Assembly: GCA_030644725.1 (NCBI GenBank)
Contig: CP130629.1
Coordinates: forward strand, 1,962,795-2,026,794
Reading direction: 5' to 3'
From: Candidatus Electrothrix communis
GTDB taxonomy: Bacteria; Desulfobacterota; Desulfobulbia; Desulfobulbales; Desulfobulbaceae
DNA length: 64,000 nt
The position numbers and the translations under genes were made by a program. The notes under the pieces are model-generated. The model was given only the letters and a program-made list of their open reading frames with translations. It was not told where the DNA came from and searched no databases. Below, one piece after another: positions 7,461 to 64,000 of this stretch. Every line of letters begins with the position of its first letter. Position 1 is the stretch's first letter.

Positions 7461-9026
7461 TTATTTCGCGTACTCGACAGCTCGGGTTTCCCGAATCACC
7501 GTCACTCTAATCTGTCCCGGATAGGTCAATTGCTCCTCAATGGACTTGGCAATATCACGACTCAACAGCATGGCATCATCATCATGCACTTTTTGGCTGT
7601 CCACGATAATCCGCAAATCACGGCCCGCCTGCACAGCATAGGATTTATCAACCCCTTCAAATGCATTAGCTATATGTTCAAGATCTTCCAAACGCTTCAC
7701 ATAGCTCTGCAGCATCTCTTTCCGGGCACCTGGACGGGCTCCTGACAGGGCATCCGCTGATTGCACCAAGACATCAAGAACGCTTTTAGGTGGAAGATCC
7801 TCATGATGGGCACCCACGGCATAAACAATATCATCGGCCTCACCGTATTTTTTCACCAGATCACGCCCGATCATCGCATGGGAGCCTTCCACTTCGTGGT
7901 CCACGGCCTTGCCGATATCATGAAGCAAACCGGCCCGCTTGGCCTTTTTCACATCCAGGCCCAGTTCCGCCGCCATAACACCGCAGAGAAAGGCTACTTC
8001 CAGAGAATGCTGTAAAATATTCTGACCGTAGCTGGTCCGGTATTTCAACCGACCGATCAGATTCACCAATTCCACATGTACACCATGGGCATTGACGTCA
8101 AAGGTGGCCTGCTCACCAACCTCTTTAATCTCTACATCCAGCTCGCCAGTCACTTTGGCAACCACTTCTTCAATCCGGGCAGGATGAATTCTGCCGTCGG
8201 AGATCAGTTGGATCAGCGATTGGCGAGCCACTTCGCGCCGGATAGGGTTAAAACCGGAAAGGATCACTGCCTCCGGGGTGTCATCAATAATAATGTCAAT
8301 CCCGGTTGCCGCCTCGATCGCTCGAATATTCCGACCTTCACGACCAATAATCCGTCCCTTCATCTCATCGCTAGGGAGCGGTACCATGGATACTGTTTTA
8401 TCGGCAACATAATCACCGGCATAGCGGGCAATGGCCAACGCGAGGATATTCTTACCTTTCCGGTCAGCCTCAAGCTTCATCTCATTTTCAATACGGCTCA
8501 AACGCTTGGCCGCATCCATCCGCGCTTCGCTCTCTATGGAATCCATAAGCCGCTCTTTGGCCTGCTCACGGGTTATCCCAGAAATATTCTCCAGCTCGTA
8601 ACGCTGCTGATCAATAAGGGAGCTCAGTTCCTTTTCCCGTTCAACAACAGCCTGTTCACGACTGTTGATCATTTTTTCTCTTGCTTGAAGTCCCGACTCT
8701 TTCTTCTTCAGATCATTGAGTTCATCATGGACTTTATCAAGCTTCCGATCAAGCCTGAGCTGTTCATCTTTGAGCTCTTTACGGGACCCCTTTATTTCCT
8801 CTTCAGCTTCTTTTTTTGACTGATAAATTTCCTCTTTGACCTGAAGCAAACGCTCTTTCTTGATCTGCTCAGCTTCCTGAATAGCATTTTCTACAATCAG
8901 GCGCCCCTGCCCCTCAATGTCCGCCTGGTTCCCTTCAACAAACTTCTTTCTCAGCACAAAACCGACAGCTACCCCGGCTATTAATGCCAGAACAAAGAGA
9001 AGTACTGCCACACCGCTCATCATCAT
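7461..9026 (-). CDS. rny: Ribonuclease Y
   Basis: A 521-residue membrane-anchored endoribonuclease that initiates mRNA decay. The parts are in canonical order: an N-terminal transmembrane helix ([20 protein letters not shown]), a long charged coiled coil to about residue 200, a KH domain ([19 protein letters not shown]) and an HD phosphohydrolase domain with [12 protein letters not shown]. The length matches the family. It lies directly upstream of tyrS and downstream of the 6S RNA candidate. The roughly 600-base gap back to the 6S locus suggests its own promoter. Confidence 0.96.
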
Positions 9027-56754: not shown

Positions 56755-59025
56755 ATGCAAAATAATACAAGTGCAGGGCTCAAACAACTTCGTCTCTGGT
56801 GTGCGGCGGCATTGCTGTTCTGGTCGCTTCTTCTGAGCGGCTCTCTCGGTCTTTATGTTCAACATGAATGGCAAAGCGTAGAATTTATAGGAAAAAAAAT
56901 AGGACTGACCGCTGTCAACAAAGACTATGTCTACGAGTTATGGAACGCCCATAACGGCGGTGTCTACGCCCCGGTGAATGACAGGAATCAACCGAATCCC
57001 TATTTGAGCGGTGTTGTTGACAGGGATATTATCACACCGAGCGGGAAAAAACTCACGTTAATCAACCCCGCCCATATGACCCGTCAGGCATATCAGCTCG
57101 AACAGAAAACATACGGCATCGGCGGCCACACCACCAGCCTTGATGCGGTTCGACCGGAAAACGCACCGGATGACTGGGAGAGAGAAGCCCTCCTTTCCTT
57201 CACCCGGGGAGAAAAAGATGCTTCAAAGCTGATCAAAAAAGGCAAAAAGACCTCTATGCGAGTCATGATGCCAGCAATCACCCGAGAAAGCTGTCTCCAA
57301 TGCCATATACGAAAGGGCGATCAGGTCGGCGACATTCGCGGCGGGATCAGCATAACCTTTCCCATTGATGAAATTGCGGCGCTCTTCCAGAGCCAATTCA
57401 AAATAAATGCTCTGTATCATTTACTGATTTACCTAATAGGAATAACAGGACTCGTGCTCTTTTATGTGCAGACCAGCAAGCAAATAAAAAAAAGGGTAGC
57501 CATTGAGAAGCAATTACGGCGCCAAACAGAAGAATGGCAGAGCACCTTTGATGCTATTCCGGATATTATCACCCTTCAAGACAGTGAAATGCGCATCATC
57601 CGAGCAAATCGGGCAACATATGACTTTTTCCAGACAACCCCCGAGGAACTTGTCGGCTCCACCTGTTACAGCCTGTTTCGAAAAGAAACCACTGCCTGCC
57701 CCGGCTGCCCTGGAATACGCTCGACTGTTGACGGATATCAGCATTGCAGCACGGTTGAGCATAAATTCCTGGAAAACTTCTTTCATATCTGCTCGGCTCC
57801 TGTCCTGGATGAGCAGGGTGACTTTCAGTATATTGTCTATATTGCCCGTGACATAACGGACAAGAAAAAGCTGGAAGAAGAACTTTTCCAGGCCCGGAAG
57901 ATGGAAGCCATCGGCACCCTTGCCGGAGGAATAGCCCATGATTTCAATAATATTCTTGCTGCAATCCTTGGGTACACAGAAATAATTAAGCTCTCTCTGC
58001 CAACGAATAGTCCTCTTGAAAACGATTTTAATCAGATCATTCTTGCAGGCAACCGGGCAACGGATCTTATCAAACAGATCCTCACCTTTAGCAGAAAAAA
58101 AAAGCAGCAAAAAGAACAGCTCCAGATCGCCCAGACGGTCAGAGAGGCTATCAAAATGATGCGCTCATCCCTGCCAGCAACCATTGATATCCAGGAAGAT
58201 ATCGACGAGCAATGCGGCTTTGTGCTTGCCGACCCGACCAATATCCATCAAATCATTTTAAATCTCTTCACAAACGGTTTTCATGCCATCGGCAATGTAC
58301 AGGGGGTCTTGCAACTCATTCTAAAACCTGTAGAACTCTCCCTTGAACATATTGCTGATAAGCCGGAGATAAACCCAGGTTCCTTTGTAGAACTAACGGT
58401 GCAGGACAGTGGCCAGGGAATGGATGAAATCACCATGAGCCGCATCTTTGATCCCTATTTTACAACCAAGGAGCAGGGTGCCGGGACAGGATTGGGCTTG
58501 GCGGTCATCCACGGTATTGTGGAAGACTGCAACGGATTTATTGAGGTTGAAAGCGTTACCGGGCAGGGAACAGCCTTTCATGTCTATCTGCCGACTGTTG
58601 AGAACAGAAAAAAAAAGGAAAAGCCCAAAGAGGACCCTCGCCAGCCGCTCCCAGGCGGTAACGAACGAATCCTCTTTGTTGATGATGAGGTGGACCTTAC
58701 CCGTATCAGTGATTCCCTGCTGAGCAATCTCGGGTACAGTGTCACAGTTGAAACGCAAAGCCTCAAGGCGCTCGAAAAATTTCATAACGACCCAAAGGCC
58801 TTTGACCTGCTGATTACAGACCACACCATGCCGGGACTCACAGGAGGAGATCTCGCCCGTTCCGTCCTGCAACTCAGGCCGGACCTGCCTATCATCCTCT
58901 GTACAGGCTACACCGCCGCCTTTTCTGAACAGGAGGCCCGTAAAATCGGCATTAAAAAATATGCTATCAAACCCTTATCCACAAGAGAACTGGCCGAGCT
59001 TGTTCGGGACGTGCTTGATGGATAA
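56755..59025 (+). CDS. Hybrid histidine kinase with heme-type (CxxCH) sensor domain
   Basis: 756 residues. Transmembrane helix 1 is near 14-35. A periplasmic DUF3365-like sensor has RESCLQCHIRKGDQ, where CLQCH at 180-184 is a c-type heme site. Helix 2 is near 222-242. Next are a PAS domain (FDAIPDIITLQDSEMRIIRA), HisKA (LAGGIAHDFNNILAAILGYT), the ATPase (TGLGLAVIHGIVEDCNGFIE) and a C-terminal receiver (FDLLITDHTMPGL). It likely senses redox state or a gas through periplasmic heme. The cytochrome-like site needs the Ccm or Ccs system. Output partner unknown. Confidence 0.92.
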   Translation: MQNNTSAGLKQLRLWCAAALLFWSLLLSGSLGLYVQHEWQSVEFIGKKIGLTAVNKDYVYELWNAHNGGVYAPVNDRNQPNPYLSGVVDRDIITPSGKKLTLINPAHMTRQAYQLEQKTYGIGGHTTSLDAVRPENAPDDWEREALLSFTRGEKDASKLIKKGKKTSMRVMMPAITRESCLQCHIRKGDQVGDIRGGISITFPIDEIAALFQSQFKINALYHLLIYLIGITGLVLFYVQTSKQIKKRVAIEKQLRRQTEEWQSTFDAIPDIITLQDSEMRIIRANRATYDFFQTTPEELVGSTCYSLFRKETTACPGCPGIRSTVDGYQHCSTVEHKFLENFFHICSAPVLDEQGDFQYIVYIARDITDKKKLEEELFQARKMEAIGTLAGGIAHDFNNILAAILGYTEIIKLSLPTNSPLENDFNQIILAGNRATDLIKQILTFSRKKKQQKEQLQIAQTVREAIKMMRSSLPATIDIQEDIDEQCGFVLADPTNIHQIILNLFTNGFHAIGNVQGVLQLILKPVELSLEHIADKPEINPGSFVELTVQDSGQGMDEITMSRIFDPYFTTKEQGAGTGLGLAVIHGIVEDCNGFIEVESVTGQGTAFHVYLPTVENRKKKEKPKEDPRQPLPGGNERILFVDDEVDLTRISDSLLSNLGYSVTVETQSLKALEKFHNDPKAFDLLITDHTMPGLTGGDLARSVLQLRPDLPIILCTGYTAAFSEQEARKIGIKKYAIKPLSTRELAELVRDVLDG

Positions 59026-59121: not shown

Positions 59122-60918
59122 TTACTCTTCCGTTACAGCAGGAATCTCTATATAAACGGTTGTGCCCTCTCCCTTTGTTGACTCAATATCTATATAGCCT
59201 TGATGCTGATGTATAATTGAAGAAGCGATAGTCAATCCTAACCCCATTCCTTTGCCGTTCCCCCGTACTTTGCTTGAAAAATACGGGTCAAAGACATTGA
59301 CAAGATCCTTGCTATCCATGCCGACACCTTGATCCTGAAGAGTTATCCTGATGAATTTCCCTTTGTTCCGCTCAGGATGGGCCTGCCCGGAACGGATTAT
59401 ATTCTCGACTGTCAGCGTAATGGCCCCACCTTCAGTGCCCAGCGCTTCCTGAGCATTAAGAAATAATTCACGCAGGGCCAAATCCAGCTGACCCGGATCA
59501 ATATATCCCATCCATAAATCCGGTGAAAAATGAAACTCCGGAACGACATTGGCTCCATCCAGAACAGCCAAGCAACTGGTAGCGACCAGATCACCAAGCG
59601 GAACAGCTTGCCGTGCAGGCGGATCAAAATTTGAAAAAAGCAGGAATTTATGGGTCAGATCCTTTGCCTGAGCAGAGGCCTCAGTTGCATAATCAAGAAA
59701 TCCTACTGCACTATGCCCAGGCGACATGTTCATGGCGGCAAGTTCGATATTACCGACAATGGCCATCAGGAGGTTATTGAAGTCATGGGCTATCCCTCCT
59801 GCCAAAGTTGCGACCAACGCCATCTTGCTATTTTTCAGAAAGCTTGCCTCCAGCTTCTTTCGGCGGGTGATATCGATACAGTATTCTATGGTCTGTTGTA
59901 TTTCATCTTCTCCCTGTCGGGCTGCCACCGGATGAGTATGGACTTCCAGTATCCGTTCATTTCCCTGGCGATCAAGAATGTTGTGCTCAAGCAAGGCTGG
60001 TTCATCCTGACGCAGAACATCCTGTAAAGGACAGGGAAGACCGCTCTTGTGACAGGGCTGATCCAACCCGTGCAGATATTGATAGCATTTTTCGCCTGCC
60101 GGTACGCCGCTCCGCCCCTCACGTGTTGCCTTATTGGCAATGGCAACCGTATAATCAGCAATGTTCACCACCATAAAAGGATGGGGAAGGGAATCGATCA
60201 CGGTGTGAAGAAAATTATTTTGCTCAACAATACGGGCGCTTCTCCGGGCAACCTCTTCCTCCAGCAGATCCCGGTGCTGCCGTATCTGTTCTTCGGCTTT
60301 TTTCCGTTCTTCAACCTCTTTTTGCAGAAGAATATTTTTCCGGTCCAACTCTGCTGTCCGTTCTTTGACCTTATCTTCCAATAAATCCCGCTGCACGGCC
60401 AAGGCAGCAAGGATATTCTCCCGTTCCATAGCAATATGCCATTTTTGAATAAGGGCACTGGCGCTCTGGCGTATTTCTATGGATTCAAAAGGCTTTTTTA
60501 TAACCAAAAGACTGTCTTTGGAGGTCAGCGCATTACTGATATCCTGCCAGGAATAATCAGAATGTGCCGTTATGATGACATATTGGAGCCGATCATCCTC
60601 CATCTGTAATTTCTTGATAGTTTGCAACCCGTCAAGACCGGGAGGTATCCGCATATCAACAAAGGCAAGGGCATACGGTTGCTCTTCCCTTCTGGCCTGA
60701 CGAACCATCCTGATGCCTTCATCACCCTGAAAGGCGGAATCCACCTGGATCATCGCATGGTAAGCCTTTGAAGCAGGCTTGCCGGTAATATCCGAAAGCA
60801 GGTCGTCGAAATCGTCAGGTGCAGTTGTCGGTTGCAGAATCTTTTTAATATCGTTGTGAATCTCCGGGTTATCGTCAATCACTAAAACCCGCCGAACTCT
60901 TTGTGCTATTGCTGTCAC
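59122..60918 (-). CDS. Response regulator-PAS-histidine kinase hybrid
   Basis: 598 residues. An N-terminal receiver (RRVLVIDDNPEIHNDIKKIL; LAFVDMRIPPGLDG) is followed by a coiled coil (70-150 residues), a PAS domain (IDSLPHPFMVVNIADYTVAI, with CYQYLHGLDQPCHKSGLPCP), HisKA (LAGGIAHDFNNLLMAIVGNI) and an ATPase (GMGLGLTIASSIIHQHQGYI). The GTG start overlaps the upstream kinase stop by four bases, so translation is coupled. It is probably the acceptor of phosphate from the DUF1638-like kinase. Confidence 0.9.
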   Translation of the reverse strand: MTAIAQRVRRVLVIDDNPEIHNDIKKILQPTTAPDDFDDLLSDITGKPASKAYHAMIQVDSAFQGDEGIRMVRQARREEQPYALAFVDMRIPPGLDGLQTIKKLQMEDDRLQYVIITAHSDYSWQDISNALTSKDSLLVIKKPFESIEIRQSASALIQKWHIAMERENILAALAVQRDLLEDKVKERTAELDRKNILLQKEVEERKKAEEQIRQHRDLLEEEVARRSARIVEQNNFLHTVIDSLPHPFMVVNIADYTVAIANKATREGRSGVPAGEKCYQYLHGLDQPCHKSGLPCPLQDVLRQDEPALLEHNILDRQGNERILEVHTHPVAARQGEDEIQQTIEYCIDITRRKKLEASFLKNSKMALVATLAGGIAHDFNNLLMAIVGNIELAAMNMSPGHSAVGFLDYATEASAQAKDLTHKFLLFSNFDPPARQAVPLGDLVATSCLAVLDGANVVPEFHFSPDLWMGYIDPGQLDLALRELFLNAQEALGTEGGAITLTVENIIRSGQAHPERNKGKFIRITLQDQGVGMDSKDLVNVFDPYFSSKVRGNGKGMGLGLTIASSIIHQHQGYIDIESTKGEGTTVYIEIPAVTEE

Positions 60919-62831
60919 TCTGTTCCCCCTGTTGCTGTTACAGGAAGCCGCATCCTGAACCTTGCTCCTTGTTCCGATCCTGCGCTTTCCCCTGTCAGGC
61001 TTCCGCCCATTTCTGCGGTCAGATTCGCTGCATTATGGAGACCGAAACCATGCCCGTCCTTTTTGGTGGTAAAACCGAAAACAAACGCCTGTTGTAAAAT
61101 GTTTTGTTGCATTCCTTTTCCGTTATCGGTTATCTCGACAACCACCTCATCCCGGTCGGCGGTCGGATATGTGCTCAACGAAATTTTCTTCTCTTCAACC
61201 GATATCCCGTCAAAGGCATCCACCGCATTTCGGATAAGATTATTCATAACCTGCAATATCTTATGCGGTTCTGCGCAAATACTCTGTTGAAAACCATAAT
61301 GACGCTCCACGGTAATTCGCTGTTCATCCAGCTCCCCCTGAAAAAGTTCCAGGCTTTCTTCGAGCAGAGAGGTCAGGTTCACCTGTTCCGTAAAATCAAT
61401 CAGCTTTGCCGTGTCCTGCTGGGCTCGAATAATCTCCGCAACACGGCGGATATGATGCAGCTGACGGGTCGTTTCAGTCAGCAGGAATTCTCGTTCTTCA
61501 GTCAATTTCCCCGAAAGCCGGGCAAAATAGGTAGGCAACATTTTCCCCCTGGGATCATGAGTGCAAAAATTCTCTCGATCCTCCTCATGGTCCTGTATCA
61601 ACTGGACAATATCCGGAAGACTGGTACTGCTGCTTTGCTGGACAGTTTCTCGAATATGTTCCGAAGAAACTGAAATACTGTTCAACGTGTTCCCTACATT
61701 ATGCAGCACTTCAGTGGCGACCTCCGCCTTACCAGCAAGGTGCGATGTACGAACCAATTCCCGCAAAGTCTGCACATGCTTAATAGATAAGGCACAGACT
61801 TCCGAGATAGCGAGGGCTGTATTGATATACTGATTAATATAGAGAGGATGGGTAACCTGAGAAACAAGCAATAAAGCAGAAGTTCCCTCTTTTCTCCCTA
61901 TACGTAGCAAAAAGCTCCCCTGCTCTTTATTCAGCAAAAAATATCTTTCCGGTCTCGCATAAAACTGCTGCGCCTGAAGCTGCTCTTCAGGGGGCAGGTC
62001 AGAAACCTGATCAAAATGCACCTCTGCGTTGCTCACCGGAATAAAATATATTTTTTTCGGGTCAAACAGCATAGTGAAAAGATCAATAATGGCAGACACA
62101 ACCTCTGATTTAGATTTTACTCTCGTCACCATACGGATGAGATCTAAGGTCATTGCCGATTCGGCAGCCTGGCGCTCAACCTCTTCTTTCTGGCGTATAA
62201 TTTTTTGCTGTTGATAATCCGCTATGATGTGCGACAGGGAGAGCCCGAGAAATTCCAAGCCGATGGGTAATATCTCGGTAGGCAGCTGAAGAAAACTGCC
62301 GAACTCGGCAAGATGTCGCTCCGAGTCCAGATCCGTGCCTGTATCAAGCAAAAGGAGTTTCCGTAAAGATTCCCCGAAAAATTCCATGGCCGTGGGCCTG
62401 TCAAACCCCCAGGTCGCGATATGCCTTCGCCAGCAACTCAACCAGCCTGGGCTCAACAGATACGTACCGTTCTGCTGTACCGCATCGACAAGGGTCGGGC
62501 TGCATAAAAGGTGGTGACACTGCTCCTTTTGATGAATTTGACAACGCGAGAACCCCTCCGGCGGAGCGCCCAGCTCACGCAAACAATAGCTGCCGAAAAT
62601 AACAACCGTATCCGCCCATGAGGATCTGACAATATCGACAAGTTCCGACCACTTTATCGGAGCGGAGGAGCAATGAGAAGGAAATGATCGAACCTCCACG
62701 TCCGTAAGCCCCTGCTGCCGCACAGCCGCCTGTATTTCAGGAAAAAAATTTTCACAGACAACAAAGCAACACACCGATTTCAAACTTCTTCTCCCTGTCC
62801 TGTTCGGCAGCATCCCGGGTAACGCCCCCAT
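60915..62831 (-). CDS. Histidine kinase with N-terminal DUF1638-like domain
   Basis: 638 residues. The first 200 (VCCFVVCENFFPEIQAAVRQ; VVIFGSYCLRELG; CHHLLCSPTLVDAVQQNGTY) resemble DUF1638, a cysteine-rich soluble domain found beside corrinoid methyltransferases. A coiled coil and a GAF-like region (LFTMLFDPKKIYFIPVSNAE) follow. The kinase has LAGKAEVATEVLHNVGNTLN, with the histidine in VLHNVGNT, and DNGKGMQQN...GFGLHNAANL for the ATPase. No transmembrane segment, so it senses in the cytoplasm. It overlaps the upstream methyltransferase by about 50 bases and the downstream regulator by four. Confidence 0.82.
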   Translation of the reverse strand: MGALPGMLPNRTGRRSLKSVCCFVVCENFFPEIQAAVRQQGLTDVEVRSFPSHCSSAPIKWSELVDIVRSSWADTVVIFGSYCLRELGAPPEGFSRCQIHQKEQCHHLLCSPTLVDAVQQNGTYLLSPGWLSCWRRHIATWGFDRPTAMEFFGESLRKLLLLDTGTDLDSERHLAEFGSFLQLPTEILPIGLEFLGLSLSHIIADYQQQKIIRQKEEVERQAAESAMTLDLIRMVTRVKSKSEVVSAIIDLFTMLFDPKKIYFIPVSNAEVHFDQVSDLPPEEQLQAQQFYARPERYFLLNKEQGSFLLRIGRKEGTSALLLVSQVTHPLYINQYINTALAISEVCALSIKHVQTLRELVRTSHLAGKAEVATEVLHNVGNTLNSISVSSEHIRETVQQSSSTSLPDIVQLIQDHEEDRENFCTHDPRGKMLPTYFARLSGKLTEEREFLLTETTRQLHHIRRVAEIIRAQQDTAKLIDFTEQVNLTSLLEESLELFQGELDEQRITVERHYGFQQSICAEPHKILQVMNNLIRNAVDAFDGISVEEKKISLSTYPTADRDEVVVEITDNGKGMQQNILQQAFVFGFTTKKDGHGFGLHNAANLTAEMGGSLTGESAGSEQGARFRMRLPVTATGGTE

Positions 62832-63853
62832 TTATGCACAGCATCGGAGACAGACAGTAATACCTCTTCACTGACCTGCCAGGGGATCTCGCCATTATCA
62901 GCAAGAATAAAGCCGCCACCGGGTGCTCCTTGCTCAATAACCTCTTTCACATTCTTTTCGGCCTGTTCCGAGGTCCAACGTCGCATCTCAACCCCGTTTA
63001 GGTTGCCCAGAATCGTCAATCTGCCCCGACAAACCGCCTTTAATGCGGCTAAATCATCCAAAATACTCACGCCGATCATCGAAGTTCCAGTGGCGATAAC
63101 TTCTTCGATAACAGACAAGGTAGCGGCTGTTGCCATGTGGATTGCCGACGGGCTGTTGATCCGGGCCAAAGTATCCCGTGCTATCCTGAATCCTATTTCA
63201 AGATGTGCGCTCGCAGTTATAGTGGGAGAAAGCAAGGCATCAAAATAACAAACAGCCGTTGCCCCAGCCTGAACTTGGGCATTGGCCCAGGCAACACAAA
63301 ACTCCTGGTTCACCTTCATAAGCCGATTGAACAATATGGGCTGTCCATGCATCAACTCAATATAGGCAGGAAACCCCATCTGCATAACCGGCAGAGAAAA
63401 AGGGGAGACTGCTATGCCCATAATCGGCACCTCGTCACCCACTTGTTCCTTGAGCATTTCAATAGTCTTTAGCATCCTGACAAGACAAGGGGTACTGGAT
63501 ATTTCTGGGACTTGCAAGGAGAGGATATCTTGTTCCGTCTTGATAATCGGTTCGCCGCTGTTTGGTGGACCGTCATCAAACCAAAGAACCTCTCCGCCAA
63601 AAGCTTCCACAGTCATTGCAGCAGCACAAAAAGAATTCACGCAGTCATGCCGATATTTCTCCCGCATCCGCAACTGCCCTTCCACCACATATTCGGGCCT
63701 GGAAAAATATTCCCTGATACTCAATCCCAGTTCTCTGGCTCCATGTATGGTCAAAAGCAGAGAAAGGGGAACTCTATCAGGTTCCTGATGACCTAAGGCC
63801 GTCAGAACCCGTTCCATTGAAGTCATTGTTGATTTTCCTTTTCCAACGCTCAC
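62780..63853 (-). CDS. MtaA/CmuA-like methyltransferase (uroporphyrinogen decarboxylase fold)
   Basis: 357 residues. MERVLTALGHQEPDRVPLSL, FGGEVLWFDDGPPN and LGNLNGVEMRRWTSEQAEKN are typical of the URO-D-like methylcobamide:CoM methyltransferase group. The family passes methyl groups between a corrinoid protein and a thiol acceptor, with a zinc site. GTG 63853 overlaps the stop of the preceding gene by four bases (GTGA). An ATG at 63826 with GGAAAAGGAAA before it is an alternative start. The methyl donor is unknown. Confidence 0.85.
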   Translation of the reverse strand: MSVGKGKSTMTSMERVLTALGHQEPDRVPLSLLLTIHGARELGLSIREYFSRPEYVVEGQLRMREKYRHDCVNSFCAAAMTVEAFGGEVLWFDDGPPNSGEPIIKTEQDILSLQVPEISSTPCLVRMLKTIEMLKEQVGDEVPIMGIAVSPFSLPVMQMGFPAYIELMHGQPILFNRLMKVNQEFCVAWANAQVQAGATAVCYFDALLSPTITASAHLEIGFRIARDTLARINSPSAIHMATAATLSVIEEVIATGTSMIGVSILDDLAALKAVCRGRLTILGNLNGVEMRRWTSEQAEKNVKEVIEQGAPGGGFILADNGEIPWQVSEEVLLSVSDAVHKWGRYPGCCRTGQGEEV

Positions 63854-64000
63854 ATTCTCTCCTTCATTTCCACACAGGAAGAAATTGCTGCGACGGCCTC
63901 ACTCGCATTCGCGCCCATGGCATCGGCTCCTATTTCCTTCCAAAGCAAGGGGTCAAAACGGAACGGAGCCCCACCGACAATAATTCGGGTTGAAGAACCA
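63850..64000 (-). CDS. Corrinoid (B12-binding) protein, C-terminal end
   Basis: The window edge cuts this gene. The visible 49 residues read RIIVGGAPFRFDPLLWKEIG and then ADAMGANASEAVAAI, the last strand and helix of methyltransferase corrinoid proteins. It would carry the methyl group for the coupled MtaA-like enzyme. Stop and next start overlap (GTGA). Confidence 0.82.
   Translation of the reverse strand, partial: GSSTRIIVGGAPFRFDPLLWKEIGADAMGANASEAVAAISSCVEMKERM

Follow-up and report, generated by a model that had tools for sequence, protein, structure and literature searches.

Why does a cable bacterium encode a corrinoid protein and a methyltransferase-like protein in one operon with a histidine kinase, and what might such a kinase perceive? 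The question is raised by a stretch of 64,000 nucleotides from Candidatus Electrothrix communis (the window; C1:1962795-2026794 of a 4,845,585-base single-contig genome), at whose end four consecutive minus-strand genes encode, in this order, the corrinoid protein (CP), an MtaA-like protein of the URO-D superfamily (MtaA2), a histidine kinase with an N-terminal DUF1638 domain (DUF1638-kinase) and a receiver-PAS-kinase hybrid (REC-PAS-kinase). A preliminary description of the same DNA had these genes overlapping or touching, and with the assigned starts all three junctions are 4-nucleotide start/stop overlaps. We propose, with a probability of roughly 0.6 for the explanation as a whole, that the genes make a modular intracellular sensor. 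We are fairly confident that CP, the MtaA-like protein and the DUF1638/GAF region form its sensory input unit; as for what this unit reads, the methylation or redox state of the corrinoid is proposed tentatively, at somewhat less than even odds. The features of the operon are the following:

63850 to 64000, minus strand: 3' end of the CP gene, the only part inside the window, with Pfam matches to B12-binding_2 and B12-binding.
63850 to 64497 in window-equivalent numbering (L002:8645-9292), minus strand: whole CP gene, 215 amino acids, running past the window edge.
62780 to 63853, minus strand: MtaA-like URO-D protein (MtaA2); its GTG start overlaps the CP stop.
60915 to 62783, minus strand: DUF1638-GAF-histidine kinase, 622 amino acids; its TTG start at 62783, which overlaps the MtaA2 stop, is inferred, the mechanical open reading frame (ORF) beginning at 62831.
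62256 to 62783, minus strand: DUF1638 domain, residues 1-176, with conserved Cys10, 38, 67 and 89; predicted local distance difference test score (pLDDT) of the model 96.4.
61749 to 62120, minus strand: GAF domain predicted by model and VIA-align, residues 222-345, with a long helix on each side; model pLDDT 93.2.
60936 to 61268, minus strand: HATPase_c domain of the DUF1638-kinase, residues 506-616 (Pfam).
59122 to 60918, minus strand: REC-PAS-HisKA-HATPase protein, with Pfam domains; its GTG start overlaps the DUF1638-kinase stop.

The resemblance of the kinase N-terminus to DUF1638 (PF07796), on which the preliminary description was built, was borne out by profile search, with scores of 37.1 and 34 bits over the Pfam cut-off of 27 bits; it is the single match of this family in the genome. 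The cut-off is also passed by all ten scanned relatives from other phyla, narrowly in the case of L122 and L132. A chance match was rejected on the grounds of the score over cut-off and the conserved motifs, and an artefact of ORF calling because the fused length recurs in many genomes; ORFs lengthened by upstream in-frame sequence, such as L054:7047-8678 and L102:4550-7471, were not counted as MtaA fusions. The kinase part contains a HATPase_c domain (68.2 bits, Pfam); HisKA gave no Pfam match at E ≤ 0.01 in this protein, and an H-box-like LHNVGN starts at residue 360. The protein is soluble, as had been claimed, in that its most hydrophobic 19-residue stretch averages only 1.44 on the Kyte-Doolittle scale.

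Modelling of residues 1-353 with AlphaFold2 from 41 aligned sequences (pLDDT 93.2, predicted template modelling score 0.70) predicts DUF1638 as an alpha/beta domain, followed by a long helix (177-220) that would form a coiled coil, a second domain (222-345) and a final helix. For this second domain a GAF fold is predicted: the VIA-align match to 3jab_B has a Z of 13.4 (root-mean-square deviation (rmsd) 2.3, 143 aligned) and that to the KdpD GAF domain 4qpr a Z of 12.5 (rmsd 2.8, 133 aligned). The architecture given in the preliminary description thus has to be corrected, as a GAF domain sits between DUF1638 and kinase. Four cysteines mark the DUF1638 domain: Cys10, Cys38, Cys67 and Cys89 are conserved in 52, 52, 54 and 52 of 54 sequences, respectively, and all four together in 48. 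In the secondary structure of the model each of them follows one of four successive strands (E5-10, E29-34, E59-64 and E81-85), which only suggests that they share one site. Eleven other DUF1638 proteins, chosen by motif and including seven long ORFs, have cysteine at three of the four positions; at that of Cys38 they have leucine (ten) or phenylalanine (one), with an adjacent histidine.

The linkage of this fused sensor to the methyltransferase-like gene, for which the preliminary description had called for a neighbourhood survey, is kept within the class. PF07796 matches occur in 78 of 257 class genomes, and a profile of the DUF1638-GAF region (A3) matches 56 of them at E ≤ 1e-10; 25 of these score above 150 bits, and the remainder stay below 87 bits with matches that span the DUF1638 part only. 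The profile of the MtaA-like protein (A1) matches 24 class genomes at E ≤ 1e-70, all of them among the 25 with DUF1638-GAF. The two genes are adjacent in 23 of the 24; in the other (G082) the operon is interrupted by the ends of two contigs, with one of the genes on either, and in G076 and G078 about 0.9 kb separates them, with the CP gene in between. Homologous kinases lacking a methyltransferase gene, which the preliminary description would have counted against its reading if common, are limited among the 25 genomes to one (G143). Kin genomes are included, so the 24 coincidences are not 24 independent events. Among 395 genomes of the phylum, A3 (E ≤ 1e-30) matches three and A1 four, the window genome included; the three coincide, with adjacent genes. 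Judged from occurrence rather than from a tree, the patchy distribution suggests horizontal spread. Six class genomes (L054, L159, L160, L161, L162 and L163) have a split form, in which DUF1638 has a gene of its own between a more distant MtaA-like gene and a kinase-receiver gene; CP precedes in five, and the contig of L163 begins inside the MtaA-like gene. The fusion in the window thus unites what other operons encode as separate, neighbouring proteins.

Beyond the class, 84,980 species genomes were scanned with A1, which gave 328 relatives; of these, the 80 closest to a single query were kept, about a dozen of these loci belonging to genomes also in the class survey. The carriers comprise Desulfobacterota groups, Chloroflexi, Bacteroidetes, Nitrospirae, Riflebacteria, Aminicenantes, alpha-, beta- and gammaproteobacteria (with Methylobacter, Beggiatoa relatives and Thiomargarita), Magnetococcales and others, which corrects the preliminary description: the system is widespread and not peculiar to the window. 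CP is encoded in all 80 kept loci, and its stop lies within -30 to 60 nucleotides of the MtaA-domain start in 76. The DUF1638 profile matches in 62, where its start lies within the same distance of the MtaA stop in 56, and the GAF profile matches in 73.

The output that follows this conserved input is interchangeable. In the 62 loci with DUF1638, it is HATPase in 39, HATPase with REC in four and GGDEF in eight; five reach a contig end and six have other arrangements. In the ten relatives already mentioned as passing the DUF1638 cut-off, Pfam further recognised HATPase in five, GGDEF in two and PAS without an output domain in one. That the CP-MtaA-DUF1638 set stands before GGDEF cyclases and other kinases strengthens the earlier reading in which methyl flux or corrinoid state would be converted into a phosphorelay. 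In the window, the likely phosphorelay partner of the DUF1638-kinase is the REC-PAS-HisKA-HATPase protein, which holds the equivalent position in Electrothrix and other Desulfobulbaceae loci; its Response_reg, PAS_4 and HATPase_c matches exceed the Pfam cut-offs, and HisKA stays at 22.5 bits, under its cut-off of 26.9.

The CP has the parts of a methyl carrier, namely a B12-binding_2 cap, a B12-binding domain and the cobalamin motif DxHxxG (here DxHxLG), whose D, H and G are kept in 78 of 78 cassette CPs (78 of the 80 loci, fragments being dropped). Its B12-binding_2 match is the sole one in the genome at E ≤ 0.001, no MetH-type cap being found elsewhere; the genome has 13 B12-binding matches, and those besides CP lie in open frames of 142 to 564 amino acids. 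The NCBIfam cut-offs for corrinoid proteins are not reached by CP, the best score being that of TIGR02370 (68.1 against 215.3 bits).

The MtaA-like protein has a paralogue in the operon, which is longer than first described: MtaA-like 1 (L002:9599-10657) is encoded outside the window, 306 nucleotides upstream of CP. In most Electrothrix loci CP likewise has an MtaA-like paralogue on either side, and most other carriers have only one such gene. The designation "MtaA-like methyltransferase" in the preliminary description stands as far as the URO-D fold is concerned (MtaA2: PF01208, 166.7 bits against a cut-off of 23.9); two of the three URO-D matches in the genome lie in this operon, and the third, far higher-scoring (442.6 bits), is presumably HemE. 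The likeness to MtaA itself has to be corrected. MtaA2 and MtaA1 reach 78.5 and 115.4 bits against the MtaA/CmuA cut-off of 235.4 (TIGR01463), and the highest NCBIfam score of MtaA2, 83 bits, is far under the MtaA/CmuA cut-offs. The zinc ligands of MtaA are provided by H-x-C and a later C. With 4ay7 aligned to locate the site, the cysteine of H-x-C is found to be lost in all 82 MtaA-like sequences of the 80 loci (Ala in 79, Gly in two, Ser in one), the histidine being kept in 81; at the later cysteine the motif reads DNHGEIP, as opposed to GC in the more canonical URO-D proteins of L055. The split form has H-H-G in place of H-x-C in five of six, and in L160 the site was not found by pattern. 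Of the two Electrothrix paralogues, the second is without the histidine of DNHGEIP. The protein should hence not be named MtaA; by its sequence it appears to be a URO-D-superfamily protein working like, or descended from, a corrinoid methyltransferase. In most kept rows outside the query's close relatives it is 60-68% identical across phyla.

A role of DUF1638 in corrinoid metabolism is suggested by free-standing members of the family. In Phaeobacter inhibens, as far as the cited passages go, a DUF1638 gene adjoins a corrinoid-protein gene, its fitness correlates with that of the split methionine synthase and methionine rescues the mutants, so that a need for DUF1638 in corrinoid methyl transfer was seen genetically and left unexplained (PMC5764234); in Ruegeria pomeroyi, a DUF1638 protein is reported to be more abundant on methylated osmolytes (PMC12478193). 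The likeness to the window lies in DUF1638 being encoded beside a corrinoid protein and tied, by genetics or proteomics, to corrinoid methyl transfer; as described in these passages, the free-standing systems differ in serving methionine synthesis or glycine betaine demethylation, and no kinase is involved. Other class DUF1638 genes adjoin RACo (L014, L034). Near the DUF1638 gene of the window there is no RACo/RamA-like partner, the three RACo_C_ter genes of the genome all being more than 0.6 Mb away. Long ORFs with N-terminal DUF1638 occur in L007-L012 and L015, and that of L008 is fused to Hydantoinase_A domains, possibly as an activator fusion.

Since DUF1638 is tied to corrinoid proteins, stands with coiled coil and GAF ahead of interchangeable outputs and is co-encoded with exactly one CP gene besides one or two MtaA-like genes, DUF1638-GAF is best read as a receptor for the state of CP. 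The sensor could then work in the following manner: The dedicated CP would carry cobalamin, and the zinc-less MtaA-like protein would bind a small ligand and alter the state of the CP cobalamin. Most likely it would move a methyl group onto or off the cobalt; with oxidised cobalt this change may fail to take place. We infer that CP docks to the kinase at its DUF1638 domain, where the four-cysteine patch may read the cobalamin state, and that the signal would travel via coiled coil and GAF domain to the kinase and probably onward to the next protein's receiver. The same input would drive a diguanylate cyclase or another kinase in other bacteria. A more specific version, doubtful as yet, has the MtaA-like protein act as a receptor enzyme that writes the presence of its ligand as a methyl group on CP, and the four-cysteine site of DUF1638 read or accept this methyl group, switching kinases or cyclases; Ada offers the comparison for a methyl-accepting cysteine site. 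If the sensor exists, bacteria sense a methylated compound or cobalamin redox state through a mobile enzyme-based input attachable to histidine kinases and diguanylate cyclases, DUF1638 gains a testable role, and CP is given a use in a cable bacterium whose genome otherwise showed no B12-binding_2 domain. If the methyl-writing version were true as well, a general-purpose sensory input across phyla would have been built entirely from corrinoid metabolism.

Several observations weigh against the sensor as proposed. The DUF1638 model lacks a confident fold match: Foldseek returned nothing at E ≤ 0.001, and the best VIA match, 4zpj (Z 6.2, rmsd 3.2, 83 aligned), neither shows nor excludes a relationship. 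DUF1638 is absent from 18 of the 80 kept loci, of which 13 have a stand-alone GAF protein, one has a GAF-HATPase, three run into contig ends and one (L072) has neither; in L100, DUF1638 stands alone without GAF. The single exception to the class linkage, G143, has a DUF1638-kinase with the four cysteines kept and neither a CP nor an MtaA match in the surrounding 15 kb; for this kinase (L153:6028-8286) Pfam makes no DUF1638 call. Conversely, G371, the fourth genome with an A1 match in the phylum set, has an MtaA-like gene without CP or DUF1638; this lone zinc-less gene and a Tll0287-GGDEF gene lie about 1.3 kb apart (L165:5187-6413 and 7709-8779). A DNA-binding response regulator was not found in the operon. 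Finally, with its zinc cysteine gone, the MtaA-like protein may have given up methyl transfer and be confined to ligand binding.

Among the alternatives, a redox or oxygen sensor fares best, unlikely as we consider it. Here, the corrinoid would serve as redox probe, oxidation from Co(I) to Co(II) would stall the MtaA-like protein, DUF1638 would read the stalled state and the methyl group would be incidental. The four conserved cysteines would suit such a function, as would the habitats of many carriers, which by their names are gradient or sediment bacteria (cable bacteria, Beggiatoa relatives, Thiomargarita, magnetotactic bacteria); in Desulfobulbaceae the cassette also has a CxxCH Tll0287-like kinase as conserved neighbour, and the cited passages on DUF1638 tie the family to corrinoid reactivation. 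This explanation leaves unaccounted for the identity of the MtaA-like protein across phyla, which suggests a specific ligand.

A ligand receptor without methyl transfer, in which the MtaA-like protein would have turned into a binding protein and CP would serve as structural partner or as light or cobalamin sensor, appears less likely than that. It draws on the lost zinc cysteine and on weak similarities of CP to CarH (28.4 bits, cut-off 400) and to 8j2y, a GGDEF-domain protein of solved structure (E 1.1e-4). Cobalamin photoreceptors, CarH among them, are precedents for a B12-binding protein put to signalling use. CarH is a DNA-binding protein that uses adenosylcobalamin and has W-x9-EH as cap motif, whereas here a methyl-carrier-type CP is encoded with a methyltransferase-fold partner. 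The CarH motif is absent from the cassette CPs, which instead read W-x9-[VIL]Y, the W being present in 75 of 78 and the following Q, [VIL] and Y in 76. CP moreover retains the full DxHxLG of methyl carriers, and its best scores, though below cut-offs, are those against methylamine-type corrinoid proteins.

The genes around the cassette bear on the third alternative. A census of nearest neighbours, picked by the length of their ORFs, drew on 69 of the 80 loci and took in 55 of 58 genes downstream and 58 of 62 upstream. Response_reg (20 of 55) and HATPase_c (11 of 55) lead downstream, and HATPase_c (20 of 58) and Response_reg (19 of 58) upstream; the nearest flanking genes are thus mostly signalling genes, dominated by two-component parts. 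Trimethylamine-type methyltransferase, RACo and methylene-tetrahydrofolate families are not among the 25 most frequent neighbour families (of 59 and of 66). Operons that pair corrinoid methyltransferases with two-component genes do exist, e.g. the mec cassette for dichloromethane, in which a histidine kinase, a receiver, a corrinoid protein and URO-D methyltransferases are reported to share one cluster (PMC9768040). As characterised there, however, mec is catabolic, comprises several MTI and MTII genes and has a PocR domain in its kinase; the present cassette has DUF1638-GAF and one or two zinc-less URO-D proteins instead, and PocR is not among the Pfam matches of the window proteins at E ≤ 0.01. 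A catabolic methyltransferase operon with its own regulator, in which CP and the MtaA-like protein would demethylate a growth substrate and the kinase regulate as in mec, could claim the two MtaA-like paralogues of Electrothrix in its favour but is very improbable, given these flanks, the usual presence of one URO-D gene and no second methyltransferase, the zinc cysteine gone in 82 of 82, the cyclases among the outputs and the lack of a DNA-binding regulator in the operon.

How far is the modular sensor known already? The component families are known, and GAF ahead of kinases is ordinary. Among described systems, the mec cassette and two kinases of Methanosarcina acetivorans, MsmS and RdmS, come nearest. 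MsmS and RdmS likewise have GAF/PAS domains and a link to methyl sulfide metabolism, RdmS being described as methyltransferase-associated; they sense via heme or thiols of their own domains, and the consulted excerpt describes no DUF1638 or CP-MtaA input (PMC6944256). Neither the assembly nor DUF1638 as sensor nor the CP-MtaA pair as input was found described in open-licence PMC papers, subscription papers and preprints lying outside this scope. The assembly looks to be a chemical sensor of a kind not described so far.

Three observations concern the surroundings and integrity of the cassette. One further signalling gene lies next to the operon inside the window:

56755 to 59025, plus strand: Tll0287-like (CxxCH)-PAS-histidine kinase-REC protein (Pfam), a convergent neighbour whose membership of the system is uncertain.

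The Tll0287-like domain is present in 14 distinct loci among those examined, mostly of Desulfobulbaceae, and the protein is possibly a second, heme-type input into the same relay. Beyond the window, a 746-residue protein (L002:10892-13132) has weak AAA/STAND-type ATPase similarity, below cut-offs, and other Electrothrix genomes keep its gene in this place too, upstream of MtaA-like 1. In L052 (G055), the cassette seems broken, with an in-frame stop in the MtaA-like gene and a short DUF1638 ORF.

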